64,000 nt of DNA from Rhypophila decipiens (lineage: Eukaryota > Ascomycota > Sordariomycetes > Sordariales > Naviculisporaceae). The notes under the pieces were generated by a model. The model made no database searches. It was not told the origin of the DNA and saw only the letters and a program-made list of their open reading frames with translations. The translations under genes and the position numbers were made by a program. Where the stretch lies: positions 81,118-145,117 of the forward strand of contig MU858142.1 of NCBI GenBank assembly GCA_033297075.1, read 5' to 3'. Shown here in pieces: positions 3,357 through 48,644 of this stretch. The stretch's first letter is position 1. Every line of letters starts with the position of its first letter.

Positions 3357-6300
3357 TCACCGCCTAGGGCAAATCTTGGCCGTCAGGTTCTCAACCTTGG
3401 GGTTATGCAGCCTGAATGCCGCACCCAAATTATCCTTCTGCTCCTTGGTGAGCTTGCCCTTGGCGATGCTGAGCTCGCGGTAACGAGTGGCGCCGCGAGT
3501 ACCGCCAGCACCTAGGCCGCCCAGAACCATAGCCAGGATGAGGACAGGAGCCATATCCGGGTTCTCGACCAAAGAGTAGACCCCGAGACCGGCAGATCCG
3601 ACGCTCTCCACGGCCATCAGCAGGCGCGCCATCATGGCGCCAGCGCGACCGAGACCGCCAATAGCGGCGCCGACAAAGGGGATGAGGAACAGGATGCCCT
3701 CGAGGATCTTCAGAATGAACTCCTTCTTTTTGCGCTCCCTCTCCTCCTGTCCAATCTTCTTGACTTCCTTCATCGAGTCGACGGCATCGGAGAGCAAGAA
3801 AACAGGCATGGCCAGAATCTCAACCGCATCGGCTGGACTTCCCACAAACGTGCCGAGACCGAGCATCATGTACATATTCTCGTACTGGCTCCACATGGTG
3901 TCAAAGTTCTTGCGAGCCTCGTCCACGACACTTTTGGGGTTGGGCACTTCAAAGTTCTTCTTGGCCGTGGGGAACCCCTTGTGCACCTTGTCGAAATTGA
4001 AGCACGAGCCAGTGCCGCCGGCGGTCGGCGTACAGCGGAACTCCCACGTGTACGTGCCAAACTCAACCCACTCCATGTCGATACCCTCCTTGCTGAGTGT
4101 CTTGTTCAGACCATCACGATCACGGACCTCGTAGAAGAATGTGTATGACTGCATGTACTTGCTGGGCGGGTTCTTGCAGTCATACTTGCTGGCGTCCTCG
4201 CGCTTGCCGATCTGCCCCAGGGCGGAGAAGCAATCAAAGTAGCCCGCGAGTGGCTTGTCGCCATCAAGCATGAGAGCGCGGAGCCGCTCGCCCATGGTGT
4301 CGTGCATGTAGTCGCGGTAGAATCCGAAAACGTCATCGTAGCCGGCGGCAGCGTCGTCGTAGCCGTCCAGCGAGGTAGCAAGCATGCTCTGCAGGGCTCC
4401 GATGGCGTTCATGGCAACACATTCACTGGAGGACTTGTCGGCATCCCTGAGGACGTCGTCGAGGTTTGTGTAGTCTTGCAGGTCGCAAGGGTACGAGAGG
4501 TCCATGGGCTCAATGTCGATATTTCCTCCAGAGTTGGCTTTGCCCTCTCCTTGCAGATCAACAGCCCAGTCGCTAACACCGCCAAAGTTGAGATCCTTGT
4601 ACCACTGGATCCGCCTTTCCTTTGTCTCGTAGTCCATATATGCCACCCACTCGGTGTGGTCATAGACCAAAACGTCAGAATCCGACTTTTCGTCATAGTA
4701 CTCGTAGTATTCGCCACCGCTGCTGTCGTAAATCTTCTTGATTTGTCGAATTTCGGCGTCAGAAATATACCCAGAGGTATTGGTGCAGTAACCAGGCGCG
4801 GCAGGTGAATTCACTTTGTCGCCCAGGAATAAGCAATGGGGTCCATCACAACCGCCTTGGGCCATCTTGAAGCTGCGGCCGTAACTGCTGATTCCGACAA
4901 AGACCTTGTATGATGGAACACCTGCCTTGGTCACCATAGCCAGCGAGTTCTCTGTCTCGGTCTTGTTGATATGGGACCGCAAACAGTTGCCAAGCTCACA
5001 ACCCTCACTGTTGCGATGAATATGTCAGATTCTATGCGACAAGAACACAAGCGGCCTAAAGAATACTCACGCGGCATATTTGTTTTCGGTGTCCCACTGA
5101 CCATGCAAGTCGTAGGTCATGTACACGATGTAGTCGGCTACTTTGGCAATGTCGGCGATAGGGAAGTGGCGGAGGTACCAATATGAAGCCGGGGCGGCGA
5201 AAGAGACCGTCTTGCCGGCTGGAAGACGGCGTTTCACCATCTTCATGAATTCCAGATAGTTTTTACCGTCCTCTACTGTACCCGGATCCGCACCCTTGAT
5301 GTCATCTGCGCCAGGATATTCCCAGTCAAAATCGACACCGTCTAGGTTGTGCTTGTTCACGAAGTTGACGATATTTGTGGCGAAGGCCAGACGGTTCTCG
5401 GATCGCACGCCCTGGCGGATGATATGGCTGGTAGGATGCTCATTGGAGAAGGCCCAACCTCCGTACGAGATGACCTTCTTGGTCTTGGTGTCCATCTTGA
5501 CGAACTTGTCAAACTGCTCCTCGACGTCTTTGACGCTGACGCTAAAGTCATCGTTGATCCAACCGAAGGCGAAGTGGATAATGGTGTGCGGTTCGGTTAT
5601 CTCGTCCACGTCCATGTTTACTAGAGCAGCTTGTGTCAGTTAAACACACAAAAGAGAGGGAGCATGAAATAAAGCTTACAGCATGGGCGATTGTGATTCC
5701 AGGCCTCAAAGTATCCAATGTGCTCGAACTTGGCGGGGGCTTGTTTGTTGTTGACAATATCCATGCCGCAGTTGGAGATGCAGCCGTAGGTGCCGGGTGC
5801 GGCGGTTCCAGGTGCTCCATCGACTGTCGTGTCAATACAAAAGTCCTTGGTCGTTCCACATTGGCCCCAGGTATTGCAGCACACATTCAGCGGGCATTGG
5901 TTGAGGTCGGCTAGCTTTGTGCCGTCGGTCGGGCGGACGGTGCCGGCTTTCTGGGGACCGCATTGAGCGTTCTTGATGATGTACGGCATGGCTGGCTCGC
6001 CGTCGCTGATACAGATGATCATGTCCGGCTGCATCGCCTCGCACTTGGTGAATCCCCATGTCTTCTTCTTGTTGAACTTTTCCACATCACCCCGTTCCAG
6101 CATGTACGCCTCCTCGATGTCGAAGCATGTCTGATTTGGCTTAAGAACATGAATAGCACACGAGCCGTCGGCGTTATTCTTGGGCCGTAGGTCGGGCTTC
6201 GTGCCTTGACTGCAGCAGACGACCGACTTGAGTTTGAGGTTGGTGCAGAAAGCATCACTGCCACCGTTGAACTTTGCGAGCTGATTGATGCTGACCTTTT

Positions 6301-7678
6301 CGCCGCAACGGGTATTGGCGATGCTTTCGCATGTGTCACCTGTATTCACTTGGACGTACTTGCATGTGCCATCGTTGTTTGGCTTGGGATCCATGTTGGG
6401 TTTCGTGCCCGAAGTACAACAGAGATAATCGCCTGGCTGGATTGAGCCGCAAATTTTGTCGCTGCCGCCGTTGTACTTGTACAAGTCATCGACCGAGATC
6501 TTGGGATTGCATTTCTGTTGGGCCACCGACCAGCAACCATCGCCAGGGTCGACGCGCGCCACCTTGCAGTCAGCGCGAGCCTCGAGGCTGTTGGCGGCGC
6601 CGAGGTCGAACGGGTGATAGACCGGATTGGGCGACTGATTTGATGCGGGCTGTCTGGCGGGGATTCTGTTGTAATGGCGCCTCTCTACGGCCAACGTGGA
6701 GTTGCTGCCACCACCAAACGTCGAGTTGCCGCTGGTACTGTTGGTGTTGAGCACAGCCCCAGGGCCCATGGTTAGGGCAATGGCAGGAATAATCTTGTAC
6801 TTTTGGTCCTTCCAGGTTTCTGAGGCGTCATAGCTTGACAGGCACTCGGCGCTCGTCCATTTGGCAATGGCGTCTTGCACAGCTTCGAGAGAGCCAGTTG
6901 TGTCGTAAATGACGCCAAAGACGTGCGCCGACGACCGTTTGCCCGCTGGTCCGCAGATCTGAGCGCTGGCTTGACGACTTGGGGCCGCGGAACCGGAGCC
7001 AGCAAACTCAGCAAAGCGGTCAAGGATAGGCGCGGCTGACGACTTGCGGATCTCAGAGCCAACATATAGACCAATAACGGTATCGCCCGCCTTGGCAAGA
7101 ATGGACGTGGCATCGCAGGTCGGGTCCTCGAGGAGGATCTTGCGGGCTTGCTGGAGGGCAGTATGGATCCCCGATGCGTCGGCAACACCAGTATTCTTCT
7201 TCTGCCACCCAACCTTGACGTCGGCTGTGGCATCCCGGAGCTCCACAGTAGGAAGACAAACGGGACCATATCTTTTTGCCTTGGGCACCGCCGAGGTTCC
7301 AGAAGCAGAGCATGCATGGATAGCCGGGTTGGGAACATTCTTGTTGAGCGGCATTCTGAAGATGACGGTGTCTTCACACTCGCTGAAAGCCTTCACATGG
7401 GGGAAGACAGACCACGAAAAGGGCACAGGTCCGGAATCGTCGCACTTTGCCGGGCAAGGGCGCGGCTTCGGTATTGGTTCATTCTGGAAGGGGAACTCGA
7501 AGGCTGGAAGACCGTCGGACCGGGCCGGTGTTTCCACCGGTTCAGGCGCGAGATCTGCCAGGGCCGTAAAGGTTGGTTCTAATGTTGGCTCCGAGTCTGA
7601 CTGTGCCAGTGCCGCAATCGGGGCCGACAGCCAGGATAAGCCGGCGACCGAAGCCGCCAGAAGGGTTGCCGTCTTCAT
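3357..7678 (-). CDS. Killer-toxin-like GH18 chitinase with three LysM modules and a CBM18 (subgroup C type)
   Basis: Secreted, cell-wall-acting chitinase of 1399 residues in three exons: 7678..5680, 5620..5071 and 5007..3357. The introns of 59 and 63 bases have clean GT-AG ends and restore the frame (NRPC-LNMDVDE and YAA-EGCELGN). Order of parts: signal peptide 1 to about 26 (MKTATLLAASVAG...); an N-terminal region with SDGLPAFEFP and CPAKCDDSG; cysteine-framed LysM modules at about 370-420, 438-488 and 504-550; hevein-like CBM18 at about 571-620 (QCGP...CPLNVCCNTWGQCG); GH18 barrel at about 648-1000. The catalytic signature DGVDFDWE lies near 760-767, with the proton-donor Glu intact. Beyond the barrel is a C-terminal region of about 400 residues containing charged stretches and two Gly/Ala-rich hydrophobic segments (near 1250-1330). 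This architecture is that of fungal subgroup C chitinases, which resemble the chitinase subunit of zymocin. The start at 7678 was chosen because it opens the signal peptide. The gene faces away from the unknown secreted gene at 9290. Confidence 0.93.
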
Positions 7679-9289
7679 ACCGGCAGTAATAAAGAAAACG
7701 AGACAATGAGAGACGAGCGGGTTGACAGCCCCGGTGGGACGTAGAAAATAATAGACGACAACGGTAATGAATGTGGAGGATAGGAAGCCCCTACCACTCA
7801 AGGAGGAATGACTGGATGGAGTTATATCACTTCTCGAGTTCGCTTGGTGGTGATGGTCGCGGAATAAATAGCTGGTGTGCTCCGATGGGGAACGGCCAGG
7901 GCAAGTCTTGAAATGAGATATCACGCCTTTCATGGACGCTAGAACGCCGGGTACCTAGAAATGGCAATACCATCGTCCCAGCCTTCATGCATCCAAGCGA
8001 GAAAGTGGGCATGAGCAAGGCACACACCCAAGTGCTGGCGATATCAGAAGCCTTCCATGCTCAGCCCGTGGATGCGGATGAAGACCTCCCTCGCCCCTAT
8101 CCCCGTCCCATCATGTCTGCGCCAAGTCGCTTGGTGAAGATGTTATGATCCAACCCACTGTTTGTCTGGACCGATCTTACCCAATGCCATGTGGTGAAGG
8201 AATCGGCCTGTGGCAAGGCAGCCTCTCTGTTTGTCGTTGATGTTAATCAACATGGATGGGGGATAAGGTGGCCAGATTCCATGAGTCTTGGCTTCGTCCG
8301 ATGTGTCTTGTCCTGGGACAGCTCCTGGCGGCGCCTAGGTAAGGATCGGTTCTTCACGAAACTAATTTCAATGCGAATCTGGGGTTCGACGTTCCGGGTT
8401 CTCCATAACCAGAAAATAATGTCTGGTTGTTAGGAGAATTTCCTGTGCCTCTGTGGCGTTTGTTGGGTGTGTTGAGGTGCCTGCACAGTCCTTCCGTCGT
8501 GTGCAACATCGCCAGCGACCGAAGGACTTTTTTTTAGCACGTCTGGGATGCACTAAAAGCCTTCAAAGTGACGCTAAATGGGCGGTGCCTGACAGCGGAG
8601 TCCCGCACCCATGCCCATATCAGAAGGTTAAATCAACCGCCTTCAAGCTGCAGGAACGACCAGGGAAGCCCCCGTACGGTACGCCTGTACTGTACTGTAC
8701 ACGATCCTTCAATGCCACTCAAGCTCAAGGAAACCTACCTACACGATCACACAAGGGTCTGATATGCATGATGTGGTTCTTCATTATCTCATCAAGTCGA
8801 GCATCCAGCATCATGTCATGGCCTCGTAGTCCAAAGCCCCCGGCATGGGATCGCAAGCGAGAGTTGATTCCAAAGAGGCCGAAAGGATTCCGTACTCTCT
8901 AAAGGACCAGCGCCGAGAAGCTAGATGGATGACTGGATCATGCAATTTCAAGCTCACAAGTGTCGAGAGTCTGCCTCGCCGAAAGAGAGACACCGGGACC
9001 CTGTATGGCAAGCCTAGGTGTCTGATTGAAGTTGGACTGGAGACAGAAAGGCAAGTGGAAAGAATATCAAGAATATGTGTTCGTTGAAGAAGTAATATGT
9101 AGCTGTTCAAACAACATTTCCCTCTTGGACTATCGGTCTCTGATTTCTTGATGCTTTCCTTTCTTTCCAGCATCTACTTTCACTCGTTCAGTCGGGTTTC
9201 TTTCTCCACGCCACCTCGCGGAGGCCACTATCTTCCCCTCTCTTTATATCTCTTCCTTTCAATTCACTCCATCAAAAAGGCTACCCACC
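7679..9289. promoter_or_regulatory. Divergent promoter region between the chitinase and the unknown secreted protein
   Basis: This 1.6 kb gap separates two outward-facing genes for secreted proteins, so it must carry both promoters and may allow coordinated control. For the plus gene, a TTTATA element at 9243-9248 precedes the ATG by about 45 bases, after a CT-rich stretch. For the minus gene, an AT-rich TATTTATT on the minus strand near 7863-7872 is a weak TATA candidate. A GTAC-rich stretch occurs at about 8674-8702. I see no supported gene here; short frames lack coding character. Confidence 0.55.
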
Positions 9290-10639
9290 ATGCGGCTCAG
9301 ATCACTCTTTTCCTCTCTATGGGTCCTTAGCGGTTCTCTCGTCGTCGCGAACACGGACACCCGGGCCCTGGAGCTAGAATACAACTGGTGGGCTTACAGA
9401 ATGGACGTCGAGGTCAGCACGGCCGAGTTCCTCAGTAAGCCCGAGAATGCGGGCAAGAACCCCAATGACGAGAAGCCCTGGCAGCTCGGGAGGAATATCA
9501 AAGCGAGCAACCTTCCCGAGGACTGGCCCAGGGGTCCCCCAATCCCAGGTTTTGGGCTCAATGTCCACGCCTATACAGCAGGCATAGCAAAGGGCGACTA
9601 TGGACGTGTAGCTGCCCGCACTCTCCCCGGGATGGACGATCCATGGAACCCCGATTTCCGGGCAGCATACGTAGAAAAAAAGGACGCAAACGGCAACTAC
9701 GTGGGAGAGCCAAGAACCATTATGCGGCTGCCCCGGGACAGCGGTCCTGCACTGGATCCGATCAATTCCGACGGCACCTTCGCCAACGAGAAGTCCCCGA
9801 ACAAGTACTCCTTCCAGGGATTTGATCCCGACGCCGTTCTTGGACCATTGAACGGGGCCAAGGGCGTGGCGGCGGGCAATTACTTCCAGCTCGACAACCA
9901 ACTGGCCATCGTCGCGAAGCGCTGCTCTCAGCTTTACCAGAAGAATCCCGACCTGGCACGCCCGTACTACGAAAAGATGGCAAGAGCACTGGAAAACGCT
10001 CAAAGAATCCGCTTGCTCGAATCCAGAGGCTTCCAGATCGAGTCGGCCAAAACATGGTTGAAGCAGTACGAGGACAAGAACAAAATCAAAGGCGCCCCTC
10101 TGTCTGGTAACACAACGCCCCTACAAATCAAGCTCAAGCCCGAGCCCAAGGATCAGACGCCTGATTCAAAGTCGTGGTCTTACGGGTGGAGGTGGCGAGA
10201 GCTGGACATTGAGGCTACGGAAAAGGAATGGCCAAAAGGAAACGGAGTTATCGCCAAGGAGAAGGAAAACATCATGGGCAATACTAGCCCGGCAAAGGGC
10301 AAGAAGCCAAAGAAAGGAGCTCTGCGGGAATTCGCAGAGCTGTGGGGTAGAGGCGACTTCACCGTGGACAAGAAAGTTGGGAAAAAAGTTGAACGTAAAT
10401 ACATGGACGGTTTTCGAGACGCCCACATCCACTTGCAGGCTCTCAGAGCGGAAGAGAGACTCTCGCAGGCCATTCGGGAGCAGATTGACGACCCCAACAA
10501 GGTCTATGGGTCGCCAAACTGCAAGTGGTATGACATCAGACCGCCCAATAACGACGGTATCAAGCCCCCTATCAAGAAGAGGCTGCTTGCCACTCTGATG
10601 CTCCAAAGAGGCCTTGATTCGGAAATGACACCTGCTTGA
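9290..10639 (+). CDS. Secreted protein of unknown family, 449 residues
   Basis: I do not recognise the family. The ATG at 9290 has a strong context (CCACCATGC) and opens a clear signal peptide (MRLRSLFSSLWVLSGSLVVA) with likely cleavage near residue 20, followed by a single uninterrupted exon. The mature protein begins with an acidic, aromatic segment (ELEYNWWAYRMDVEV). A Pro/Gly-rich middle follows (PEDWPRGPPIPGFG, DDPWNPDF), then a basic lysine-rich segment near 310-345 (KGKKPKKGA, KKVGKKVERKY), and it ends MLQRGLDSEMTPA. Only two cysteines are visible in the mature part, unlike a typical small effector. No transmembrane segment follows the signal peptide. It lies between, and is co-oriented or divergent with, a LysM-GH18 chitinase and a LysM protein, so a role in chitin or cell-wall interaction, or as a partner or cargo of the chitinase, is plausible but is inference. 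Confidence 0.85.
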   Translation: MRLRSLFSSLWVLSGSLVVANTDTRALELEYNWWAYRMDVEVSTAEFLSKPENAGKNPNDEKPWQLGRNIKASNLPEDWPRGPPIPGFGLNVHAYTAGIAKGDYGRVAARTLPGMDDPWNPDFRAAYVEKKDANGNYVGEPRTIMRLPRDSGPALDPINSDGTFANEKSPNKYSFQGFDPDAVLGPLNGAKGVAAGNYFQLDNQLAIVAKRCSQLYQKNPDLARPYYEKMARALENAQRIRLLESRGFQIESAKTWLKQYEDKNKIKGAPLSGNTTPLQIKLKPEPKDQTPDSKSWSYGWRWRELDIEATEKEWPKGNGVIAKEKENIMGNTSPAKGKKPKKGALREFAELWGRGDFTVDKKVGKKVERKYMDGFRDAHIHLQALRAEERLSQAIREQIDDPNKVYGSPNCKWYDIRPPNNDGIKPPIKKRLLATLMLQRGLDSEMTPA

Positions 10640-12762
10640 GGTGCATCATGTCTTTGGTGTCCGTTAAACTGGGATGTAAACTGTGTCTATTGCCTGCTGT
10701 TCTTTCTTCTATACTCTTCTAGCTTACTGTCGTCCCCATCCCCATTTCTGTCTCTCACTCTTTTCTTAACAAACTTTTTTTATTCCACTTACATAGACAT
10801 CACTCAACCATGTACATATCCTGATACATCAAATACTAAATAGAACATGTAATCCCAAATGCCTCTCTAAAAAAGTACTACGCTTGGTTCAGCTGCGGTT
10901 GAGTTTTACACCTACTAATGTGAATTCGACCATTGGCCTTGCTCATGTCGAAATTCGGCTTCTGTCGATATCTTTCTCTTGCACTTTTCAACCACAGTTC
11001 TATCTAAACACAAGGGACTTGACAGCACACGAATTATAAAACGCCAAGACTCATTCTGGTTAATGTATAAACACTCGCCTGCAACTGAAATGTCATCAGG
11101 CGTACTGTAGCTCGCTAAAACATTGCCATCTTGGGGTCAGCCTCACTTCCAGCTTACCGTCCAGACTCCGACACTTCTCGATGTTCTCCATAGACAGACA
11201 CATTTACACCAACATCAATGGAACTCCGCCGACATAGGATTTGAAAACAGAGAATTTATCTAACAATCTTGCATTTCGGCAATCCACTATAAAGCACTCT
11301 ACTAGTTGAAGGAAGAGGCGCTGTTAAGCGACATATACCGTACTATGCTTATTAGTAAGGTATACCACACGGAAGGACCTGAGACTAGCCGTATTGCAAA
11401 CCAAGACGCCTTCTCTGCAGGTCTAGCCGCATAGACTAGCGTATAGTGCACTGTTAAAGTGCGGGTAGCGATGGCTAAGAAAGAAAAAAGGAATCCTTCC
11501 ACTTTCTGACTTACCCGCCCAGCGTGGCGGTTCAATATAAAAAAAAGACATGGGATGATATTGACTTTTGGATTCAGGGGTTTATTGACGTAGCAACGCC
11601 AAGATAGGAGAGGCTAACCAGGGTCTGGCCAGCTTTCTCACCAATGGACGCGGGTAACAGTGGGGCCTCAGGTTGCACGCTGGGATCGGCGCTAACAGAC
11701 AGGCATCATGCGGTACCGGTATCAATACCGATAGATACCGGATACAGTATGAGATCCTCTGTCCGTAATTTCCCCAGGGCCCAACTTCCTTCCTTCCAAA
11801 ATGCACCCTGGGCACCGCCCTGGCCGTCATGGTAACCAAGGATGAACCGAAACTGGGGAAGCTGCCGCATGAAGTCGATCTTACCTGGCCACGTGCTGGC
11901 TTATAGATCAAGAAATCCCTGACGAACATGTGCCACATTCACATCATTGGCGCGAGCTAAACAAGGGACTTCGACCCGGCGAGCTGTTAACATGCGGCGA
12001 GGCATTTGCAGGCCAGAATGTTGGTCACTTCCACCAGAACCTTCTCATGTCAAGACTTGACTCTAATGACACTCTACAACATGGAACCACTTGCTGGTCA
12101 CGACAGGGGATTGAAAGAAAGGAGGCATTGACCTGCAAGAAACTCAGCAGGAAATCTCAGCGACTACATATCAAGCTTCCTGGGATCCTCTAGCTGGTCT
12201 TTATCATTATTAGCGCAGGCATACTGAACAGGTCCGAAAGGTACGCCTCACCTAGTACAGCGGCCCAGCAAATTGCTACTATGCTCCGTTGCAGAGTATC
12301 GATCCATGTTACATCTCTCAAAAACAAAAGTACTGCACCAAAAGGCTAAGAAACAGTCTCTGTTGATAGTTGCAATCCTTCTGACAGGCAGGGCACATTT
12401 CGGCGGCAGCATGGCAACACCAGGATATGACCGAGAAGACTGACCATGTGAAGGCAGTGGGCCAAGATCGTGGCATCACTGGTCGTCCCAAAAGATGAGT
12501 ACGCGAACAACAAGCCCGGAGGCAATGAAATATAAATGTCCTGACTCCGGTCCGATGAAGGGGCTGAAGATTCTCATCCCCATCATCACCGTCGACGATC
12601 GTCTAGGATTTCTCTCTTTCTCCTCCAGTCCTCATCAAACGACCAAGTGCAGCCTCCGTCTCGTTTGGATAGCACCACAAGTCTAGTACATTCGTTTTTA
12701 ATACATCATTATTTACACCGGATCGCACTTTACCTAATATTCAGACTCAGTACTCGCTCACC
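10640..12762. other. Intergenic region between the unknown secreted protein and the LysM gene
   Basis: No gene is supported in these 2.1 kb. The first 250 bases are T-rich and suit a 3' untranslated region and polyadenylation. A perfect TATAAAT at 12531-12537 lies 226 bases before the LysM start codon and is a candidate TATA box for that gene. A short palindromic run of GATA/TATC and ACCGG elements sits at about 11712-11750. Frames on either strand have no recognisable protein features. Confidence 0.55.
12531..12537 (+). promoter_or_regulatory. TATA-like element upstream of the LysM gene
   Basis: A TATAAAT heptamer stands in an otherwise GC-balanced stretch 226 bases before the LysM ATG. The following stretch is C/T-rich, as in highly expressed fungal promoters. 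The assignment is by position and sequence only. Confidence 0.4.
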
Positions 12763-13951
12763 ATGTCTCCTCGCACGAGAACCGGTCTCATCTTCGGCCT
12801 CGGCCTGGCTGCTGCCAAGCTGGCCGCTGCGGGTTCCGAGCCAGGCATGCCGACCATGCCGGACTCTAGCTCCCAGTGCGTGTACTGGTATGACAACAAC
12901 GGCTTCATGTCGTGCGAGGCCGCTGCGTCTTCCAACTGGATCACAGTTGAGGAGCTCCGTGAATATGTAAGTCTGGATACAAACACTTACTGCTTGTGGC
13001 GTGACGGCGATGGACTATTTGGCTGATCATTGCATCTAGAATCCCTCCATCGGAGCCGGGTGCACCAACTTCCAGAAGGGCTTCTCCTACTGCGTGGAGA
13101 TTGACCCCAGCCTGCCCATCGGTGGTGGTCCGACAGCCACCTCAACCAGCACCACGAGCATCACAACCTCGTCGACCAAGACGTCGTTAACTACGCTGAC
13201 CACCATTACCACCAAGCCGACCCCCACTACTACATCCACCAAGACCACCAGCACCTCGACCTCAACCACTACCCAGGGCAACGGAATCACCACCCCGACC
13301 CCTCTCCAGCGTGAGATTGTCAGCAACTGTGACGCCTTTTACATGGTCAAGGACAAAGAAACCTGCGACACTGTGGCCAAGGCCAACGGCATCTCGGTCG
13401 CCCAGCTCCAGCAATGGAACCCCTCGGCGGGCAGCAACTGCGCCGGCCTCTGGGCAAACGCCTACGCCTGCGTCTCTACAATCGGCCACACTCCCACCCC
13501 AGTCACCCCAGGCAATGGAATCCAGACGCCGTCGCCTCTCCAACAGCAAATCGTCTCCAACTGCGACGCCTTCTACAAGGTCCAAAGGGACGAAAACTGC
13601 GACAAGGTAGCCTCCAAGAACGGCATCTCTGTGTCTCAGCTCCAGCAGTGGAACCCCTCTGTCGGCTCCAACTGCGCCGGTCTCTGGGCCGACGCCTACG
13701 CTTGCGTCTCCATCATCGGACACACCCCTACCCCCGTGAATCCCGGGAACGGAATCCAGACTCCGACGCCGATCCAGGACGGCATGACCAAGAGCTGCAA
13801 GACCTTCCACCTTGTCAGCGGGCAGACTTGCCAGAGCGTCTTGGACCGGTACAAGGTCACGCTGGCCAACTTTTACAAGTGGAACCCTGCTGTTGGGAAT
13901 AACTGCCAGAGTATGTGGGACAAGACTTATGTCTGCGTTGCTGTCTTGTAG
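12763..13951 (+). CDS. Secreted multi-LysM protein (LysM effector type), with duplicated LysM units
   Basis: Extracellular chitin-binding protein of 371 residues in two exons: 12763..12966 and 13040..13951. The 73-base GTAAGT...TAG intron falls inside the first LysM. A signal peptide occupies about 1-23. A first, divergent LysM with four cysteines lies at about 38-92 (CVYWYDNNG...CTNFQKGFSYC). A Thr/Ser-rich linker, probably O-glycosylated, follows at about 98-142. Then come three LysM modules at about 163-212, 242-291 and 320-369. Modules 2 and 3 are near-identical (NCDAFY, NGISV-QLQQWNPS, SNCAGLWA-AYACVS) and come with the GNGI-TP-PLQ linker; the repeat unit is 234 bases. No catalytic domain is present, so a chitin-binding or chitin-shielding role is expected from LysM effectors. 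The nearby LysM-GH18 chitinase suggests either protection of the fungus's own wall or control of chitin fragments. Confidence 0.92.
13277..13951 (+). repeat. In-gene tandem repeat, 234-base unit, encoding LysM plus linker
   Basis: Units begin at 13277, 13511 and 13745, each with a GNGI-x-TP-x-P linker. The first two units match closely at protein level over about 78 residues. The third keeps the linker but its LysM has diverged (SCKTFHLVSGQTC). The spacing is exactly 78 codons, so duplication kept the frame. Confidence 0.85.
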
Positions 13952-15162
13952 CGGCTACATAGGGAGAGCAACCTACCAGTCAAACAGGCAACCAGAAGTC
14001 CTAAGTAAAAAGTAGAGAAGGAGAGAATGAGGTGAAGCTATAAAACCATCATGTATATATATTCCTCCTTTCATTTCGCAGTCATTCTTTCTACCCTCTA
14101 TTTAGAGTTTATTTCTCAGTAAGATAGGGGTTAAATAAAATAGAGTAATCCGTTCCATATTTACATACCTGTCTATCATTACGAAGGCGGCTTTGCTGAT
14201 TGAGATAAAACATTATGCAGACTTGAATGTATTCCCTCTTAATCTCACGCCATCTTGACATGTCCTTTCCGGCTTATATTTCAATGAAATTCCAAAGCAC
14301 TGAATACACAAAAGAGCGGAGGTTAAAGGGGGATATTGATATGGGGCTTGATCAACAAGGATCATTACTCTCATATACAGGCACAATTCTTACAAAACAA
14401 AAATGGAAGAATCTTCATTTTGGATGTGTTTTCCTGGGCTAGAATAAATGTCTTGAATAGCTAATAAATGCCATAGCTGACTGGGAAGGATGCCCTGACT
14501 AACTGGAATAGATGCCTTGACTGACTGGAATAAACGCTTTGACTAGCTGGAACAAATGTCTTGACTAGACTAGAATATATACCTTACCTAGTAAGAATAT
14601 ATGCCCTGACTGGACTGGAATATACCTTGACTGGTTAGAATTAACGCCCTGACTGGCTAGAACAGATGCCTTGGCTGGCTAGAATAGAGAAGATTATAGA
14701 CTCTGCCAGTCTTTTAGGGCACTGATCACTTTCTTCTTAACAATTTGACAAGGTTCGTTAAGAGTCTTCTCAGTATTCATTCAGAATATTCTCAGTGTTC
14801 ATTCAGAATACTGACAGAAGGATTTCACATCCCATTTTTACGTATGTGATCGGCTGCAATCAGATAAGACGTCACTGCCACGGCCTGGAACCTTCAAGAA
14901 CCTCACGGAGTTCATATGAAGGCAAACTTGGGATGATTTTCATTTGGGAGAGATTTGGGCGTCATGTTATCCTCTTTCACGTGCCGTGGCCCTTTGAACA
15001 CTTCCTTCCCTGAGCAACGCCAACCTTAATTTTCTGAGCGGCAGGAGACACTCCTTCCTTTCAGCGGACTTCCAGGTTTTCATTCTCCGCAAACCTCCAA
15101 GCATTACCGTCCTTTCAAACTACAGTCTGCGACGTTCTCTCTTCCCCGAACAACGCACTTTT
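13952..15162. other. Intergenic region between the LysM gene and the F-box gene, with a minisatellite
   Basis: The first 300 bases are AT-rich and fit a 3' untranslated region. The 22-bp minisatellite at 14439-14689 occupies the middle. The last 250 bases contain CT-rich promoter-like sequence before the F-box reading frame. A near-repeat of CAGTATTCATTCAGAATA occurs at about 14771-14807. No gene is supported. Confidence 0.55.
14439..14689. repeat. Degenerate minisatellite, unit about 22 bp, about 11 copies
   Basis: Reading forward, units follow the pattern CTGGAATAAATGCCTTGACTGG with substitutions and occasional 1-3 base length changes. Units start near 14439, then about every 22 bases until 14689. 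The order of identical and diverged units indicates an old array. The unit length is not a multiple of three and no frame passes through it, so it is non-coding. Confidence 0.8.
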
Positions 15163-15270
15163 GTGCTTCCGTCAACTGCCCGTCATGGACGACACCGCGC
15201 CAACCTCAGCTTGCAATCCCTCAATAATACATCGCAGGATGTCAGCTTACTCCTCAATCTCCCGAACGAA

Positions 15271-16803
15271 ATGATCATGGAAATCTGTCGCAGTCTCTGT
15301 CTGCACTGTCGCCATGAGCGAATCGGAGAGCTGCCTAACGAGGATGTTTGTGCGGGCATTCAAGATCAACTGGCTATCTCACGTCTGAGTCGCTGCTCTA
15401 ATAGATTGAGGGTCACTGCCCAGCCGATACTTTTTCACTTCTTCGCCTACCTCGAAGCTCGAGTCGCCGCACGGAGGTGGGAAGCTCAAGTCGCCATACA
15501 GAAGCGTGAGGCTGCCTTCATCCGCACCTTATTCTGGCGGCCAGACCTGGCTTCGTCCGTCAGGAGCTTGGTCCTGTGGTCGCCCACAGAAGACTGGTGG
15601 GGTGAAGCCCGGAAGTCATTTGCGCTGGAGGATCAGGACCAGACATTCAAGCGGATCGCCAAACGTCTCGGCCCTCAGTGGGAGGGACGACAATACGATA
15701 AACCATTCGAGTTTCATGAACTCGCCATAGCTCTCGCACCTCGTGCCAGCTATGTCATGCTGAACTGTTACTTTGGACTGAACTTGTCAGTGCCATCCCC
15801 ATCTCAGACATGGGAAAATTGGCCACAGAGACTTGAGAACCTTAAGCATCTTGTTCTCGTCGACCGCGAGATATCTTCGGATTATTGCTACTTGAGGGAT
15901 TTCATGGCCCTTATTAAGCACACACCAAACCTTGAGAGCCTGGTTGTTGAGAGCCTGGTTGTTGCCGGCTGTCACGATGGGGACCGCGACAACTGGGAGG
16001 ATCTCTGGTCGAGCAGTGACGAGTTTCTCTCTCGTCTCAAGAAGCTGTCCGTCAGAGGGTTCATGAGAGGCCCCTATCGCACCTTTATTCCCTGCTCGGT
16101 GGTCGAAGTGATGATCCGGCACAGCCCAGTGCTGGAGGATCTCGAATTCTTTCACCCCTGGGAGCCTATTCACTTGCATGGGAAATCGGATTTGGAGCGG
16201 TTCGACTTGGATGTCTATCTCGGAACTGCGAAGACGACTCTGAAGCGGCTGTGTTATTCGGCCTTTTGCTTCGGGCGGGTCCGGATATATTGGCGGGGGG
16301 AGGACGAAGAGGATCTCGATGTGTTCTATCCAAACGCGGATACCCGCCCCCAATTCACGACTGGCATGTCGCTCCACGACTTCACCGCCCTTGAGGCACT
16401 GGAGCTAGAACAGCCTGTCTTGTACGGTCAAGTCTTTGATAACCCGGACCGCAGCCGCGAGCTGTTGTCGATAAGTGAATTTCTAGGAAAGCTCCCGCCG
16501 TTGCTGAAGCATTTCCGCCTGGGGTTCGTCTTTTCCTGGCCGATCGTGTTCAGAGACTTGATGGCCCTTGCCGACGAGCACGGCACCCGGTTTCCCCAAC
16601 TCAGATCAGTCACCCTGGACCTAAATGAGAGACCACAACAAAAGGAGCACGACATCCTGCTCCAGACCTATCAGCTTGCGGGCATCTCGTTGACCATGCA
16701 GTATACGGTTTGGGGGGGCAGAGGACTGTTGCCTACTCGACCCGCCGGATATCCCGCTCCTAAGCCCACGCCAATCTCTTACGAAGAAGAAACACGAGTC
16801 TAA
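15271..16803 (+). CDS. F-box protein, with unresolved translation start
   Basis: The family supplies substrate adaptors of SCF ubiquitin ligases: the F-box binds Skp1 and the remainder binds the target. The frame is open from 14999 to the TAA at 16801-16803. The F-box (LPNEMIMEICRSL ... LSRCSNRLRVTAQPILFHFF) is encoded from about 15262 to 15440. The downstream part contains several LxxL..L segments (LKHLVLVDREI, LESLVVESLVV, LKKLSVRGF, LEDLEFFHP, LRSVTLDL) like degenerate leucine-rich repeats, as common in Pezizomycotina F-box proteins. The first in-frame ATG is at 15271, inside the F-box, while a good-looking ATG at 15185 is in another frame. Either translation starts at 15271 with a trimmed F-box, or a one-base shift exists between 15185 and 15262, or an upstream exon was missed. 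No introns are seen. The target is unknown. Confidence 0.75.
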   Translation: MIMEICRSLCLHCRHERIGELPNEDVCAGIQDQLAISRLSRCSNRLRVTAQPILFHFFAYLEARVAARRWEAQVAIQKREAAFIRTLFWRPDLASSVRSLVLWSPTEDWWGEARKSFALEDQDQTFKRIAKRLGPQWEGRQYDKPFEFHELAIALAPRASYVMLNCYFGLNLSVPSPSQTWENWPQRLENLKHLVLVDREISSDYCYLRDFMALIKHTPNLESLVVESLVVAGCHDGDRDNWEDLWSSSDEFLSRLKKLSVRGFMRGPYRTFIPCSVVEVMIRHSPVLEDLEFFHPWEPIHLHGKSDLERFDLDVYLGTAKTTLKRLCYSAFCFGRVRIYWRGEDEEDLDVFYPNADTRPQFTTGMSLHDFTALEALELEQPVLYGQVFDNPDRSRELLSISEFLGKLPPLLKHFRLGFVFSWPIVFRDLMALADEHGTRFPQLRSVTLDLNERPQQKEHDILLQTYQLAGISLTMQYTVWGGRGLLPTRPAGYPAPKPTPISYEEETRV

Positions 16804-27100: not shown

Positions 27101-27837
27101 AGTAAGTTACCCGTAAGTAGGACTCCGACATGGTCACTGAATTACGTTATAAGCAAGACAGCCATGTTCTTCATTGAACTGCGAACAATCGAATCTTGAA
27201 TGTGCTTTGAGAGTGGAAGAGGAAAGAGTGGTGGAAAACGAGCTCGAGCTGTATATGATCAAGTTTGATTTCACGGCTCTTGGGGGGGTTAGGCAACCCC
27301 TTTTTCTCTAACAAAATACACGATGGTGATGTGCACATGAAAATCTCAAAGCATCCGAAGTGTTGGAAACTACATCAAACCAGCAATTGTTGTGAAAATC
27401 CTGTAATTGATGAAAGAGTCTTGAGTTCCCTAGTATATGTCTGGAAATTCGAGTGACATTGCCGTCTTTAGTCTTTTTCAACGACAGCTTGGCCATGTGA
27501 ACATCAACATGTTTTAAATTGTAGGATTTCCATCACGATGGTTGTCCCACACGGGCCATCCGTACCAGTCACCCCAGGAACCCCACTCCGTGGTGCTGGA
27601 CCCCTGCCGGTTCTCCAATTGCAAGGCTGAGAACCCACCCCGCTGGACACCCCCTGGAACTTGGCCAAGGTGGTGGTGGGTGCTGCCTGCCATTTGATTG
27701 CTTTTGAGACCAGGAATCTTTCAGCTTTTCGCCCATCCCCCACCACGCAACTTCAGTCAATTGAGTTTTCGAGATTCAACACTTCCTCTTGATATGTAAA
27801 AATCAATGCTGTTTCGCGCACAATTACATAATTCGCC
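27101..27837. other. Intergenic region upstream of RAD17
   Basis: These 0.7 kb contain the 3' flank of the questin-oxidase-like gene and the promoter of RAD17. A G-run (27282-27287) and C-rich patches near 27570-27660 are the only notable features. No gene is supported. Confidence 0.5.
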
Positions 27838-30800
27838 ATGCCGCCAGCTGCAAAGCGACGCAAGCGGGCCATTATCGACGACTCCGATGACGACGATGGT
27901 GATAATAATAAAGTCGACGCGAAGCCAAATGGCCGCGGCGGACTGCAGCAGCCGAAGGCCAAGAACACCAACAGCCGTAATAATACCCTGACCCGTTTCC
28001 TCATTTCTTCCCCGGACGCGAAGCAGTCGGCGAATGGGATAAATCCTTCCGCGTCTCCGAGCCCGACCCGAAAGAAACCGACGGCGGCACCTGTAGCGCA
28101 AGCGTCATCATCCGCCCCAGTTCAAAATGGGATACAGAGCCGCCTGTTCGCTGCTGCCTCGAGACCGGCAACCAAGAGTCCAAGCGCGAGCCCAGAAAAG
28201 AAACGGACGACCAGAGGAAGCAAGAAGCTCAAAATCGACGACAATGAGAAAGGGAAGAGTGCTGACCTGAAGACGCTCTTTTCCAACCAAGCACAGAGGA
28301 GCCGGAACTCTGCTGCGAGCGCGTCTTCTTCGTGTGCTGGTACCAACAAGAATGCTCTCAGCTCGCTCCAGTTCGACGATATAATTAGTGATCCCATTTC
28401 AGGGGATGAAGATATTGCCTTGCACAAAGCCGCCTCGTCGTCGAGCATCGTGGGAAAGGCGGCCCATAAGCGCTTCAAGGGGTCCTCACAGTCACAGTCC
28501 GGGGCAAGTAGCATCGGCAACAGCCAGCGGTTCTTGATGCCGCCAAAGCCGGCAGCGTCAGGAGGGACTTCAAAGTCAGCCAATGCGAGCCCGGATGATC
28601 CACGACCGTGGTCCGAGCGATTTGGACCAGTCAATTTGGACGAACTTGCTGTGCACAAGAGAAAAGTGGCGGACGTGAGGAAATGGCTGGACGATGTTAT
28701 GGCGGGCCGGATGCGACAGCGACTCTTGGTGTTGAAAGGCGCCGCCGGCACGGGCAAAACAACCACGGTTCAACTCCTTGCTAAGGACATGCATTGCGAG
28801 ATTCTCGAGTGGAAAAATCCAGCCAGCTCGTATGGGGCCGTGCAGGGGGGATATCAGTCAGCGTCTGCGCAGTTTGAGGAGTTCCTGGGACGAGGCGGGA
28901 GGTTTGGGCAGTTGGACATAGAATCACCGGATCCGTCTCCTCCTCCTCCACCATCTACGAGCACCCAAAGCACCACTGGACGCCCAGAGCGAAGGATTAT
29001 CCTCATCGAGGAGTTTCCCAATACGTTTATGCGCTCCTCGACTAGCCTGACATCGTTCAGGAACGCCATATTACAATTCCTGGCGGCAAATACGCTGCCA
29101 CTCATGAGCTTTTCACGAGACTCTTTTGCAGATCCAATCACGCCAGTCGTGATGATCATATCAGAGACTCTACTTACCACGACATCCGCGTCTGCTGATA
29201 GTTTCACAGCGCATAGGCTACTCGGTCCCGAAATCCTTCGTCATCCCGGGACAGGAGTCATCGAATTCAACCCCATCGCCCCCACACTTCTGGCGAAAGC
29301 CCTCGAAGTAGTCGTCCAAAAGGAGGCGCGAAAATCCGGTCGACGGCGGACCCCAGGGCCGTTGGTCCTCAAACGTTTAGGCGACATAGGGGACATTCGA
29401 AGCGCAATATCAGCACTAGAATTCCTCTGCGTCAAAGGCGACGATGATGCCGACTGGGGCGCCAATATCGCATTTACCAAACCAAAGCGAGGGTCGAAAG
29501 AACCCCCTGCTCTGACAAAAGGCGAACAGGACAGTCTCGAGCTGGTAACTCAACGAGAGTCCACGCTAGGAATATTCCATGCCGTGGGCAAAGTAGTTTA
29601 CAACAAACGAGGAGACCCGGCGCCGGAAGGATCAGTCGAGGCAAAGGCGGAGATACTCCCAGATTACATGGCCCATCTGGCGAGGCCTTTGCGGTCGGAG
29701 GTCTCGGTTGAGACTCTGATTGACGAGACGGGCACCGACACGCACACATTCATCTCGGCCTTGCACGAGAATTTCCCGCTGTCGTGTGACCCGACCGGGC
29801 CGGCGGATCCTAATTCCTCGCTGGATTATATGAATGGGTGTCTGGAGAATCTCTCGGATAGCGATATGCTATGTCCATCGTGGGACGTCTTCTTCAGCGG
29901 CGGCGGTGGTGGTGGTGGTGGGAATGGATATTTTGGGAAAGATTCGGGGAGTCATGTCCTACGCCAGGACGAAATGGCGTTCCAGGTTGCTGTGCGGGGT
30001 CTGCTTTTCTCGTTGCCGTCGCCGGTCAAACGGCAGAAACATCCTACCGGGCGCGGTACGGACTCGTACAAGATGTTTTATCCCGCGTACCTCAAGCTCT
30101 GGAGGGCAAAGGAGGAACTGGAGGGGCTGGTGGATATGTGGTCTACCAAGATGCTCAAGGGCCAAGATGGCACATCTTCAAGCAGCAGCAACGTTTCTAG
30201 TACTACGAGTCTAACAAACGGCGCGAGTGCATTCCGAAAACCCAAACCAATCTCCGGCGGGAGTGGAAACGGAACCACCACAAGCAGAAACAACAGTCTG
30301 AGCATAGAAAACTGGGCATTGTCGCCTAGCAAAAGACGGCAATCAGAAGTCGATTCAACCACGACGACGACAAATACGGATAAAGCACCACCACCACCGT
30401 TACTCTCTCTCGGGAGCTCGGCACGACAAGAGATGTTACTAGAGAGGCTGCCTTACATGGCGCATATCGCTCGTCGGAGGCGATGCTCGTTTGGCACGAT
30501 GCGGATTAAGGATCTGGAGAAGATCGTGACCTTTTCGGGTATTGGGCCCAGCAAGGGGGACGAGTCGGATGTGGAGGATGATGGTGTCGACGAGAGAGCA
30601 GCTACGGGGACTATTGGAGGGGGAGAAGAAGATTCTGCGGCCTGGGCGACGGATAAACCTACTGAGGAGGGGACTCCTAGGAAAAAGAAACGTACTACTG
30701 CTGCTGGAGGAGGAGGATTACTGGGTGGTGGCCGAGGTACTACTACTACTACCAAGAAAAAGGGGGGATTGTTTGACGAGGAGGAGGACGACGGGCTAAA

Positions 30801-30870
30801 TGGGCTGGAGAATTTGCCGTTACAGAGTCTTGTCTTGAGCGATGATGATATTGAGGATGATGACTTTTAA
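27838..30870 (+). CDS. rad17: Checkpoint clamp loader subunit Rad17
   Basis: Large subunit of the Rad17-RFC2-5 complex, which loads the Rad9-Rad1-Hus1 clamp at DNA damage and stalled forks in the nucleus. It is a single exon of 1010 codons. The N-terminus is basic and acidic in turn (KRRKRAIIDDSDDDD, a likely nuclear signal). An RFC-like landmark DDPRPWSERFGPVNLDELAVHKRKV precedes the AAA+ core. Walker A is GAAGTGKT at about 301-308, and Walker B is RRIILIEEFPN near 386-396. The lid region includes RRTPGPLVLKRLGDIGDIRSAISALEFLC. C-terminal features are YLPYMAHIARR-like (LLERLPYMAHIARRRR) and FSGIGPSKGDE. The tail is Ser/Thr- and Gly-rich with an acidic end (SDDDIEDDDF). A run of eight glycines (near 690) reflects a GGC/GGT repeat. 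The protein is longer than yeast Rad24 (659) mainly through these low-complexity insertions. It is convergent with APC2. Confidence 0.95.
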   Translation: MPPAAKRRKRAIIDDSDDDDGDNNKVDAKPNGRGGLQQPKAKNTNSRNNTLTRFLISSPDAKQSANGINPSASPSPTRKKPTAAPVAQASSSAPVQNGIQSRLFAAASRPATKSPSASPEKKRTTRGSKKLKIDDNEKGKSADLKTLFSNQAQRSRNSAASASSSCAGTNKNALSSLQFDDIISDPISGDEDIALHKAASSSSIVGKAAHKRFKGSSQSQSGASSIGNSQRFLMPPKPAASGGTSKSANASPDDPRPWSERFGPVNLDELAVHKRKVADVRKWLDDVMAGRMRQRLLVLKGAAGTGKTTTVQLLAKDMHCEILEWKNPASSYGAVQGGYQSASAQFEEFLGRGGRFGQLDIESPDPSPPPPPSTSTQSTTGRPERRIILIEEFPNTFMRSSTSLTSFRNAILQFLAANTLPLMSFSRDSFADPITPVVMIISETLLTTTSASADSFTAHRLLGPEILRHPGTGVIEFNPIAPTLLAKALEVVVQKEARKSGRRRTPGPLVLKRLGDIGDIRSAISALEFLCVKGDDDADWGANIAFTKPKRGSKEPPALTKGEQDSLELVTQRESTLGIFHAVGKVVYNKRGDPAPEGSVEAKAEILPDYMAHLARPLRSEVSVETLIDETGTDTHTFISALHENFPLSCDPTGPADPNSSLDYMNGCLENLSDSDMLCPSWDVFFSGGGGGGGGNGYFGKDSGSHVLRQDEMAFQVAVRGLLFSLPSPVKRQKHPTGRGTDSYKMFYPAYLKLWRAKEELEGLVDMWSTKMLKGQDGTSSSSSNVSSTTSLTNGASAFRKPKPISGGSGNGTTTSRNNSLSIENWALSPSKRRQSEVDSTTTTTNTDKAPPPPLLSLGSSARQEMLLERLPYMAHIARRRRCSFGTMRIKDLEKIVTFSGIGPSKGDESDVEDDGVDERAATGTIGGGEEDSAAWATDKPTEEGTPRKKKRTTAAGGGGLLGGGRGTTTTTKKKGGLFDEEEDDGLNGLENLPLQSLVLSDDDIEDDDF

Positions 30871-31802: not shown

Positions 31803-34800
31803 TCACTTCTTCACTAATTTATACTTACCCCCTACAATCTCCAAATCCCCATCAGCAAGCTTCTCACTCAAAAAGTCCAAAAGCTCCTCGTTGCTCCATT
31901 TAAACCCATCTGGGATCAGCATCTTCATCATCATCGCCACCTGGCCCAGCGGCATCGACACGCTGGCGTTCGTCAACATGCCCCGGATATACTGCCAATA
32001 CATGGTTTGGCGTTCCAGTTCCTTGGCGCTAACAGCCGGCTTGGTCGGCTGTCGGCGGGACGAGTCATCACCAGCTTCCTCCTCGGTATCCGCTTCACCC
32101 TCCATCACGCCTTCCTCGGCAGGAGCGTCGGTTGCCTCGGGACCCGGCGTCAGCGACTCCACAACGGTATATACACCGGGCTGTACCCGACGCAAGACTC
32201 CCTTGGTTGTCCAAAAAGTGAGCGCAGCAGCGATGAGATCCTCGTCCATCTGGAGCTGCATGTAGAGGTCGTCTGCGGAGCGACTGACAGGATTGCTTCC
32301 GCCAGGGTCGTTCTCGTCTTGGAAAGCGTAGATGACAGTGGCTTCAATGGTGCTGCAGTCGACGCAGACGGTCCGGTCGCGCAGTTCCAGCTCGACACGG
32401 GTCTGGCCCAGCTGATTCAGCCAGGTAAGCTTACGGCGCGACTTGAGATTCTCGTAGCCCAGCTCGTACCGCCTCTGCTCCTCGACGATGGGCTGGGGCA
32501 ACACAAAGTGCTCCCTCTCCAGTGACGGCCAAAACAGGCGCGACAGGATACGGGCGTGGTACTGTGTTCCGTCTGAACCATCCCCGTAGTCGCCGCCATT
32601 CTGTCTGGAGGCAGGACCGGCGGGTGTGACGAGCAGGTCGTGCTCGAGCTTCTTCTGCTGCCATGTCCTCCTGATGGCTGTGTCGAGGCGTCGCGAGTCC
32701 TGTACATCCTTAATCATGACATCGCAGTTTTGAAGGGCCGCCTCGCCAAACCGACGCTTCAGCAAATCGAGGACACGCAGCTCTTGGTCGAAACGAACTG
32801 GGTCGCCGAGCAATCGCTCCGCGATTATGGATGTGAACTCCTTGATGAAGACGTCCTCGCTTCCCAGTGCAGAGATGAGCGTTCCGATGACATCCTCGCT
32901 CTTGGGTCGCTTGTAGTTCGCACCCGCGTCAACCGGGTCGGGCACCCATTGCATATCGTTCCAATCTAGCTCCTCGTCCTCGGGGGTTACACGACGGGTC
33001 TGCGCTGGGTCGTTCAGGAGCAGCGCAAGCTCGACGAGAGTACCAGAAGACGTTGGCCGAGAACTTGATGCATCAGCGGAGCTATCCCCACGGCTCCTTG
33101 TTCCTGGTGTCTCACTCGATCTTCCAGGCATGGCAGGCGTCAAGAACTGGTTCCTGTCGGCTTTCTTCTTCTTGGTTTCACTGACTTTTCTCGCAGCCAG
33201 GACTTCTTCCGGGCTGGCGAGCAGACCAGTAACCACAATTCGTATAGCATCCTCACGCTGGCACAGGTAGAGTTGTAGGCTCGGCTCAATATGTCCTAAC
33301 AAGACCTTACTATGGTCCAGTGCGTGAAAGGTGTGAATGATAGCAATGTAGGTCTCCAAGATCTCCAAAGTGCTATGGCCAGGATGCAGAAGTCTGGTCT
33401 GGAGGGCTCGTGAGAAGCTTGAGGTGAGCTTCGTCCTCCGGGCGGATGTGGTAACTGTCGCCCGCAAATCATCGAGCGCTCCACGTGAGGACGGCCATGC
33501 CAATACAATGTCAAACAACTCAGAGATACGCAAGGCAGCTAGACGGCCAAGAGCTAAAGATAGGTATGTCTTTAAATCGGCCAGTGTCACAGGTGATGCG
33601 ACGTCCGGAGAAATTCGGGACAACACCTGATAGCTCAGCCGGGAGAAGTGGTTTTCTACCCAGTCACCAAGTGAGAGAATGCAAGGCGACGACGAGGATT
33701 TTGCCGTGGCTAGTGATAATCCGCCCGGTGTTACTGGGATGATGGTCTCCTGAACGGCCCAGACACCAGCGTAGGCACCATTCACAAACGCAGACATCAT
33801 TTGGTCCATGATCTCGGCGAAGAGAATTTGAAACCTCTCTCCACCCAAGCCCACATTATACAGCTGCTCAGCAAGCTCGTGGAGACGTTGCCGTGCTGCC
33901 AGTGCTTCGAGGTTGCCCTCGTGCGGTGGCGAGGGTCGAGTCGACTGTGCCTGATGCTTGCCACTGCACATCACCGGGATCCCCAAGACCTGGCTGACCA
34001 ACCGGACGAGAACGACCCTGATAGACCTTATCAACTGATCGGACGCCGAGATACTGACCAGAGCATGAATATCCCTTCTAAACCGAAGGGCCATCGTCTC
34101 GGCGTCCGACTTTGCTTTCTCAGTAGCAAGGCCATCCACTGTACGGCTAAATCCCCTCACGAGCATACCAAGGCCGTAGAAATAGAGTCTCAGTGCGGCT
34201 TTCAGCGTCCGAATACTACTCATGACCGTCACCATGTGGCGTTCATAATCATTTCCCTTTTGGCTCCCTCGCTTCGCGTTTTCCCCACCGTCGATGCCAA
34301 CATAGCCACCGTCCACTGGATAGTCAGAATCCTCCTCCACACACCCCGCTAAAAGGGGGATAACGTGCTGGGTAAAGTGACCTCGTACTTGCTGAGCATG
34401 CCAGGCCACGATGTCGTTCGTGTGGGCAGCTCGCGGGAGGACGGTCTGGGCATGGACCAAGCTATTCAGAGCTTGATAGAATTCCACATCGGACCCCAAG
34501 TGCAACTGGGACTCTGGGGCAAGGGTGCCAAAGGAATCATCTGCAGTGGCGGATGAGGGGAGAGCTATCCGGGCGGTTACAACATGCCACGCTCTGTCAT
34601 AGGCAATCTGGTCATCGGCTGCATTCGCTATTGATGGGTAAAATGGTTGAGTCAGCTGGGACTGTGACGCGGCCGCTATGGTGCTCTGCGATAAGGTTGT
34701 AGGTGTGGACGTAGTGAAAGGTTGTCCTTGCAGGGGCTGAAGGGTGTCTCGGGTAGCTGCCTGAGAGAATATCGTCGTAGATGGTGCTCCTGTGCCGTAC

Positions 34801-34967
34801 TGATGGACATTGCTCGATACAGCAGGGCCTCCGAAGGGTTGCCCTTGGTCCGGAAAGGGAATAGACGGCGTCGAGGAGGGTGTGGGCAGTGAGGCATCAG
34901 TCTGAAAAACGGACTGGAAGACGCGGCGGCGGCGTTGCTGCCACCTCGAAGCAACAGCAGCTGGCAT
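31803..34967 (-). CDS. apc2: Anaphase-promoting complex subunit 2 (cullin-like scaffold)
   Basis: Cullin-family subunit of the APC/C ubiquitin ligase. With the RING subunit Apc11 it forms the catalytic core that ubiquitinates securin and B-type cyclins. It is a single exon of 1054 codons, and the ATG at 34967 (MPAAVASRWQQRRRRVFQSVF) is the first in frame. The N-terminal 140 residues are low-complexity. Cullin homology is clear from about 680 onward: SEDVIGTLISALGSEDVFIKEFTSIIAERLL, RVLDLLKRRFGEAALQNCDVMIKDVQDSRRLD, then SRLFWPSLEREHFVLPQPI and YENLKSRRKLTWLNQLG. The winged-helix C-terminal domain of Apc2 (MYWQYIRGMLTNASVSMPLGQVAMMMKML...KLADGDLEIVGGKYKLVKK) occupies about 985-1054. A Ser/Thr-rich linker (RSRGDSSADASSSRPTSSG) and an acidic EDEELDWNDMQWVPDP stretch precede the cullin part. 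There are no introns. Confidence 0.95.
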   Translation of the reverse strand: MPAAVASRWQQRRRRVFQSVFQTDASLPTPSSTPSIPFPDQGQPFGGPAVSSNVHQYGTGAPSTTIFSQAATRDTLQPLQGQPFTTSTPTTLSQSTIAAASQSQLTQPFYPSIANAADDQIAYDRAWHVVTARIALPSSATADDSFGTLAPESQLHLGSDVEFYQALNSLVHAQTVLPRAAHTNDIVAWHAQQVRGHFTQHVIPLLAGCVEEDSDYPVDGGYVGIDGGENAKRGSQKGNDYERHMVTVMSSIRTLKAALRLYFYGLGMLVRGFSRTVDGLATEKAKSDAETMALRFRRDIHALVSISASDQLIRSIRVVLVRLVSQVLGIPVMCSGKHQAQSTRPSPPHEGNLEALAARQRLHELAEQLYNVGLGGERFQILFAEIMDQMMSAFVNGAYAGVWAVQETIIPVTPGGLSLATAKSSSSPCILSLGDWVENHFSRLSYQVLSRISPDVASPVTLADLKTYLSLALGRLAALRISELFDIVLAWPSSRGALDDLRATVTTSARRTKLTSSFSRALQTRLLHPGHSTLEILETYIAIIHTFHALDHSKVLLGHIEPSLQLYLCQREDAIRIVVTGLLASPEEVLAARKVSETKKKKADRNQFLTPAMPGRSSETPGTRSRGDSSADASSSRPTSSGTLVELALLLNDPAQTRRVTPEDEELDWNDMQWVPDPVDAGANYKRPKSEDVIGTLISALGSEDVFIKEFTSIIAERLLGDPVRFDQELRVLDLLKRRFGEAALQNCDVMIKDVQDSRRLDTAIRRTWQQKKLEHDLLVTPAGPASRQNGGDYGDGSDGTQYHARILSRLFWPSLEREHFVLPQPIVEEQRRYELGYENLKSRRKLTWLNQLGQTRVELELRDRTVCVDCSTIEATVIYAFQDENDPGGSNPVSRSADDLYMQLQMDEDLIAAALTFWTTKGVLRRVQPGVYTVVESLTPGPEATDAPAEEGVMEGEADTEEEAGDDSSRRQPTKPAVSAKELERQTMYWQYIRGMLTNASVSMPLGQVAMMMKMLIPDGFKWSNEELLDFLSEKLADGDLEIVGGKYKLVKK

Positions 34968-48592: not shown

Positions 48593-48644
48593 CTTGAAGA
48601 CGAAAGAGAAACCGAAAGCCGACTAGAGGGGCTCGAGAAGCACA

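Follow-up and report, generated by a model that had tools for sequence, protein, structure and literature searches.

What does a killer-toxin-like chitinase of a mould admit into its victim? Subgroup C-II chitinases of filamentous ascomycetes owe that name to their likeness to the carrier of zymocin, and the substance they would let in is left unspecified in the accessible parts of the relevant reports (PMC5999205, PMC2614207, PMC8715425). A cluster of three genes for secreted proteins in Rhypophila decipiens brings this question into focus. The cluster occupies positions 3357–13951 of a 64,000-nucleotide stretch (the window) that forms the end of contig C98 in a 45.7-Mb genome of 408 contigs. 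Gene models made from the DNA and Pfam matches bear out a preliminary description of the locus as a chitin-directed cluster comprising a chitinase, a 449-residue protein and a LysM protein; the signal peptides of all three were called by eye. We consider it probable that the chitinase and the 449-residue protein together make up a two-part, chromosomally encoded killer toxin, built in a filamentous ascomycete on the plan of zymocin and of PaT, the toxin of Millerozyma (Pichia) acaciae. The poison that killer-toxin-like chitinases of moulds seem to lack may thus be encoded by the adjoining gene.

Linkage of the two genes across genomes

Homologues of the 449-residue protein were sought in two runs over 5.8 billion proteins, in which scoring was confined to the 7,992–7,994 candidates with the most words in common; seven family members emerged from the first and ten, including the window's own, from the second. 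Four named genomes hold a homologue, three with ordered locus tags and one with unordered tags. In each of the three, the homologue's tag follows directly on the one borne by the best-matching chitinase: Naviculisporaceae sp. PSN 640 (V8F20_008938/008939, both on contigs of 146,531 bases), Cercophora sp. LCS_1 (OQA88_10217/10218, both 265,805 bases) and Humicola hyalothermophila (VTK26DRAFT_9157/9158, both 10,761 bases). Adjacency in these genomes is read from locus tags and matching contig sizes rather than from sequence. In Immersiella caudata the two genes share a 6.1-Mb contig, but its tags are unordered and the evidence of linkage is weak. The preliminary description had posed the question of whether the homologues are scattered; they are not, a chitinase adjoining them in all three named genomes where this could be tested.

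The linked chitinases of the four named genomes rank 2, 3, 4 and 7 among 210 chitinase matches, and the R. decipiens homologue of the 449-residue protein may lie within the three-member cluster P0001. Across five genomes, sequence identity in the one protein tracks that in the other (r 0.91, over 10 non-independent pairs), with R. decipiens P0008, which is 98% identical to the window chitinase, used in its place. The 449-residue protein is the more divergent of the two (31–57% identity, against 63–81% for the chitinase).

A predicted fold like that of a toxic subunit

The 449-residue protein is encoded by a single-exon open reading frame (ORF) on the plus strand (9290..10639), single-copy in its genome, and is basic (pI 9.25). 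As the preliminary description had it, the protein falls in no known family: there is no Pfam family above cut-off and no NCBIfam match, profile searches of the PDB gave nothing above noise, and a viral fold library yielded no match. SPMIP1 was dismissed as its identity (E 0.009, below cut-off).

A first AlphaFold model, made from seven sequences, was poor (predicted local distance difference test score, pLDDT, 65), and Foldseek returned with it a noise-like list (best E 2.3) in which chains of 4O87/4O88 stood at ranks 7, 8 and 10. With a better predicted model, the best structural match is PaOrf2, the toxic subunit of PaT. The modelled protein thus resembles PaOrf2 in fold, and because it does so the idea that it is a partner or cargo of the chitinase, advanced in the preliminary description and supported by the linkage, is strengthened. 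A pore-forming cargo was set aside on two grounds: as the PaOrf2 match rose with the better model, pore formers fell to lower Z, and none of the ten family proteins has a 19-residue hydrophobic segment.

Six polar residues are invariant in the family: Glu28, Arg37, Asp39, His93, Arg106 and His381. Glu28 (9371..9373), which is mature residue 8, and His381 (10430..10432), both kept in 10/10 members, are candidate catalytic residues, their placement on PaOrf2 coming from the ends of the alignment range only. Cys411 (10520..10522) is the only cysteine invariant in all ten, and P0007 has no other.

The chitinase as a candidate carrier

The candidate carrier lies on the minus strand (3357..7678), in three exons (7678–5680, 5620–5071 and 5007–3357) separated by two introns, and has 1399 residues comprising LysM, CBM18, GH18 and a C-terminal region. 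Pfam matches GH18 (E 1.1e-45), CBM18 (4.2e-7) and two LysM stretches (4.9e-9); the third LysM stretch of the earlier domain string, LysM3-CBM18-GH18, is visible by eye only. The catalytic Glu is intact, as had been claimed, in the motif DGVDFDWE beginning at residue 760. By size, secretion and domains the protein is of the C-II type, and its relatives share this architecture and are labelled killer toxin subunits alpha/beta in source databases.

We aligned 14 relatives, the best-ranked matches P0008–P0022 minus P0015 (904 residues). Seven cysteines after GH18 are invariant in all 14, one protein having an eighth, and the last stands 2–5 residues from the C terminus after a long cysteine-free stretch with hydrophobic segments. 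In the window chitinase these segments span residues 1281–1299 and 1335–1353 (hydropathy peaks 2.17 and 1.74); such C-terminal peaks are common to 14/14 relatives, with a putative role in membrane transfer. Because the window chitinase has an odd total of cysteines (45), it is likely to hold a free one, a feature that would not be uniform across relatives, whose totals are odd in nine and even in five. Its last cysteine, Cys1396 (3369..3371), is a candidate disulphide partner of the cargo, and on sequence grounds a disulphide between the 449-residue protein and the chitinase is plausible.

A KR pair at residues 1118–1119 (4200..4205), a possible Kex2-type cleavage site, is kept in 9/14 relatives, including all seven closest, and absent in five. 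A cut at KR1119 would release a beta-subunit-like tail of 280 residues and 31.0 kDa (3360..4199). Elsewhere in the genome, a chitinase of the same class (contig C124, L021) ends in an Hce2 effector-like domain, possibly a fused instead of a separate cargo.

A second intact locus

The chitinase C-terminal region was matched at five places in the genome, of which only the window copy and one on contig C219 look intact by eye. At C191 (L024) the N-terminal part of the chitinase was not found in the stretch examined, and the copy looks decayed; C295 (L025) holds a broken copy; and a fragment on C197 (L026), which resembles the window copy most closely (64% over 64 residues), hints at the loss of a close paralogue.

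On C219 the order is chitinase (minus), a gene we call orphan X (plus), an ankyrin-repeat-like gene (by eye) and a LysM gene (plus). Orphan X (L027, record 48501–49590), divergent from the intact chitinase and single-copy in the genome, encodes a secreted protein of 338 residues with a terminal cysteine and has no Pfam family. Neither tblastn, hmmsearch nor hhalign found significant similarity to the 449-residue family. By eye, X has Glu35 at mature residue 8, an E....Y.AY block and a C-terminal H...M.A.KRI block; in post hoc comparisons with the family, the N block gave p 0.034 against shuffles and 0.005 against random stretches, and the C block 0.011 and 0.007. Two results count against homology: X scores negatively for the N block (−4.8 bits), and it fell outside the 12 best for either terminal block in a scan of 2387 ORFs. 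X is accordingly termed an analogue, although it may yet be a homologue; it is a possible second cargo.

LysM/chitinase loci lacking the C-terminal region show no convincing secreted gene in the gap (C57, C229, C32, C124, C132, C51 and C219a, the last with short ORFs of ≤141 codons, one having a weak hydrophobic start), and the C10 gap holds a 378-residue ORF without visible signal peptide. The association of a secreted gene with the C-terminal region gives Fisher p 0.03 over seven loci, with C10 excluded, and 0.02 over eight, with C10 scored as having no secreted gene; the test is post hoc and on small numbers, C32 and C229 are near-duplicates, and gaps were scored by eye from ORF lists.

Chromosomal setting and the LysM gene

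The chitinase gene and the 449-residue gene diverge from a 1.6-kb intergenic region (7679..9289), and the LysM gene (12763..13951, plus strand; one intron, 12967–13039) lies downstream of the latter. Its product, a candidate self-shield of 371 residues, has three LysM stretches by Pfam. GC content (51% for the window, 55–59% for the genes), introns and nearby Rad17-, APC2- and Ofd1-like genes place the cluster in a chromosomal setting, not on an AT-rich (>75%) cytoplasmic linear element.

Genome-wide, LysM and GH18 matches merge into 24 LysM and 31 GH18 loci, two GH18 matches below the family cut-off (C315 and C219:13965) being excluded from the 46. Four LysM loci lie inside chitinase genes; 11 of the other 20 have a GH18 locus no more than 10 kb away, where 0.28 would be expected, and 10 of these 11 pairs are divergent by listed strands, although not all are independent events, C32 and C229 being near-duplicates. 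The pairing is strong but already known, a LysM gene beside a subgroup C chitinase being described in the accessible text on Trichoderma (PMC4392113). The near-identical divergent pairs on C32 (L014, L015) and C229 (L012) may be a recent duplicate or separated haplotypes.

Just 3′ of the LysM gene lies a degenerate 22-bp tandem repeat array of up to about nine copies (14463–14688), followed by a 601-codon ORF (14998–16803) with an F-box-like start by eye and no Pfam match above cut-off. An ankyrin/F-box-like gene likewise occurs in the C219 cluster; this recurrence may be accidental or may hint at an immunity gene. None was evident on a glance at the neighbours, no search for candidates being made. 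Farther along are a Questin oxidase-like ORF (PF14027; 26233–27030) and the Rad17-like (27832–30867) and APC2-like (31806–35027) housekeeping genes.

Discussion

The gene anatomy, the conserved linkage, the invariant residues and the resemblance in predicted fold, all of them observed, suggest how such a toxin might work. The chitinase would bind and open the chitin of a competing hypha. Its hydrophobic tail, which may be cleaved at KR1119 and stay attached by disulphides, would help the cargo to cross the membrane. Cys411 would probably join the cargo to the last chitinase cysteine. The cargo itself would be a PaOrf2-fold ribonuclease, using Glu28 and His381 as its acid–base pair to cleave the anticodon loops of tRNA inside the target, and the LysM protein would probably protect the chitin of the producer itself.

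Several other explanations deserve weight. The two genes might have no functional link, their proximity being ordinary synteny among related Sordariales and the PaOrf2 match chance. The named genomes with homologues are all, we assume, Sordariales, in which neighbours often stay together, and the linkage may be no more than background synteny. Nor is linkage seen throughout: homologues P0004–P0007 and P0130, on contigs of 1.9–8.4 kb, have no chitinase on an equal-sized contig among the 120 listed of 210 matches, and the chitinases of Mycothermus and Podospora aff. communis have no detected partner. Yet mere synteny would leave the PaOrf2 match a coincidence, and it sits poorly with a secreted orphan, not detectably homologous, in the corresponding position beside the second intact chitinase and with the lack of a convincing secreted gene in the gaps at the eight loci without the C-terminal region; we think it very unlikely.

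Scarcely less unlikely, in our judgement, is that the 449-residue protein serves the chitinase without being toxic, as a partner in secretion, as a helper in some chitin-related role, or as an inhibitor or immunity factor. Linkage and parallel divergence would fit any dedicated partner, and no other immunity gene is known at the cluster, but the predicted fold is that of a toxic subunit, and the immunity factors of PaT and zymocin are cytosolic in the portion of the literature available (PMC4431711), whereas in this one a signal peptide was called by eye. A stronger competitor, though still far from favoured, keeps carrier and cargo and has the cargo kill or inhibit by other means, as another nuclease, by membrane damage or as another enzyme. 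The changes in rank with the better model and the lack of hydrophobic segments argue against a membrane-active cargo, and the six invariant polar residues would suit an enzyme. A toxin in which the chitinase carries an anticodon nuclease remains our preferred reading.

More tentatively, and with rather less than even confidence, we suggest that C-II chitinases with a hydrophobic tail and invariant last cysteine are a shared vehicle for interchangeable, fast-evolving PaOrf2-fold ribonuclease cargos encoded by the divergent gene, together forming a chromosomal polymorphic killer system. The 449-residue family and orphan X would then be two cargos, and wherever related chitinases of Colletotrichum, Fusarium and Verticillium retain the last cysteine, a cargo gene would lie unrecognised alongside. 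The search recipe is simple: inspect the divergent slot beside chitinases with a hydrophobic C-terminal region. A linked, co-inherited partner with a toxic-subunit-like predicted fold makes an old question testable with two genes, and, if our proposal is true, anticodon-nuclease killing extends from yeast cytoplasmic elements to the chromosomes of filamentous fungi.

Relation to known systems

In the open literature surveyed we found nothing on a toxic partner of the C-II chitinases in filamentous fungi, although the priority of our proposal is not certain. In zymocin and PaT, as the accessible parts of two reports describe them, labour is divided among a chitinase subunit, a hydrophobic stretch for membrane transfer and a separate nuclease (PMC4431711, PMC5618205). 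The cluster would work like this family, but we do not class it as a member because it lies on a chromosome rather than an AT-rich cytoplasmic element and its nuclease, processing and complex are putative. Like PaT (carrier PaOrf1, anticodon nuclease PaOrf2), it pairs a chitinase-type carrier with a hydrophobic stretch and a separately encoded secreted subunit, whose predicted fold best matches PaOrf2 and which has a Glu near the mature N terminus and a His near the C terminus. Unlike PaT, it is chromosomal, in a window of 51% GC; its carrier gene has introns, a LysM gene is attached, and the cargo is about 110 residues longer than PaOrf2, without sequence similarity.

With zymocin of Kluyveromyces lactis (alpha, beta and gamma), as far as the available text goes, it shares an alpha/beta-like carrier in one gene and a gamma-like secreted protein in another (PMC5618205, PMC2614207). 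The putative beta part is 31 kDa, with putative KR processing; the window cluster differs in being chromosomal, and gamma-toxin is much smaller than the 449-residue protein. In Trichoderma atroviride, tal6 is a LysM gene beside the subgroup C chitinase gene tac6, as in the window, and the two are co-regulated according to the accessible text (PMC4392113), whereas here a cargo candidate gene stands between the LysM and chitinase genes. The window chitinase belongs by its LysM, CBM18 and GH18 domains with the C-II chitinases, whose partner is left as unspecified antifungal molecules in the parts of the reports available (PMC2614207, PMC8715425, PMC5999205); to these chitinases as described, the window adds a linked candidate toxic partner.
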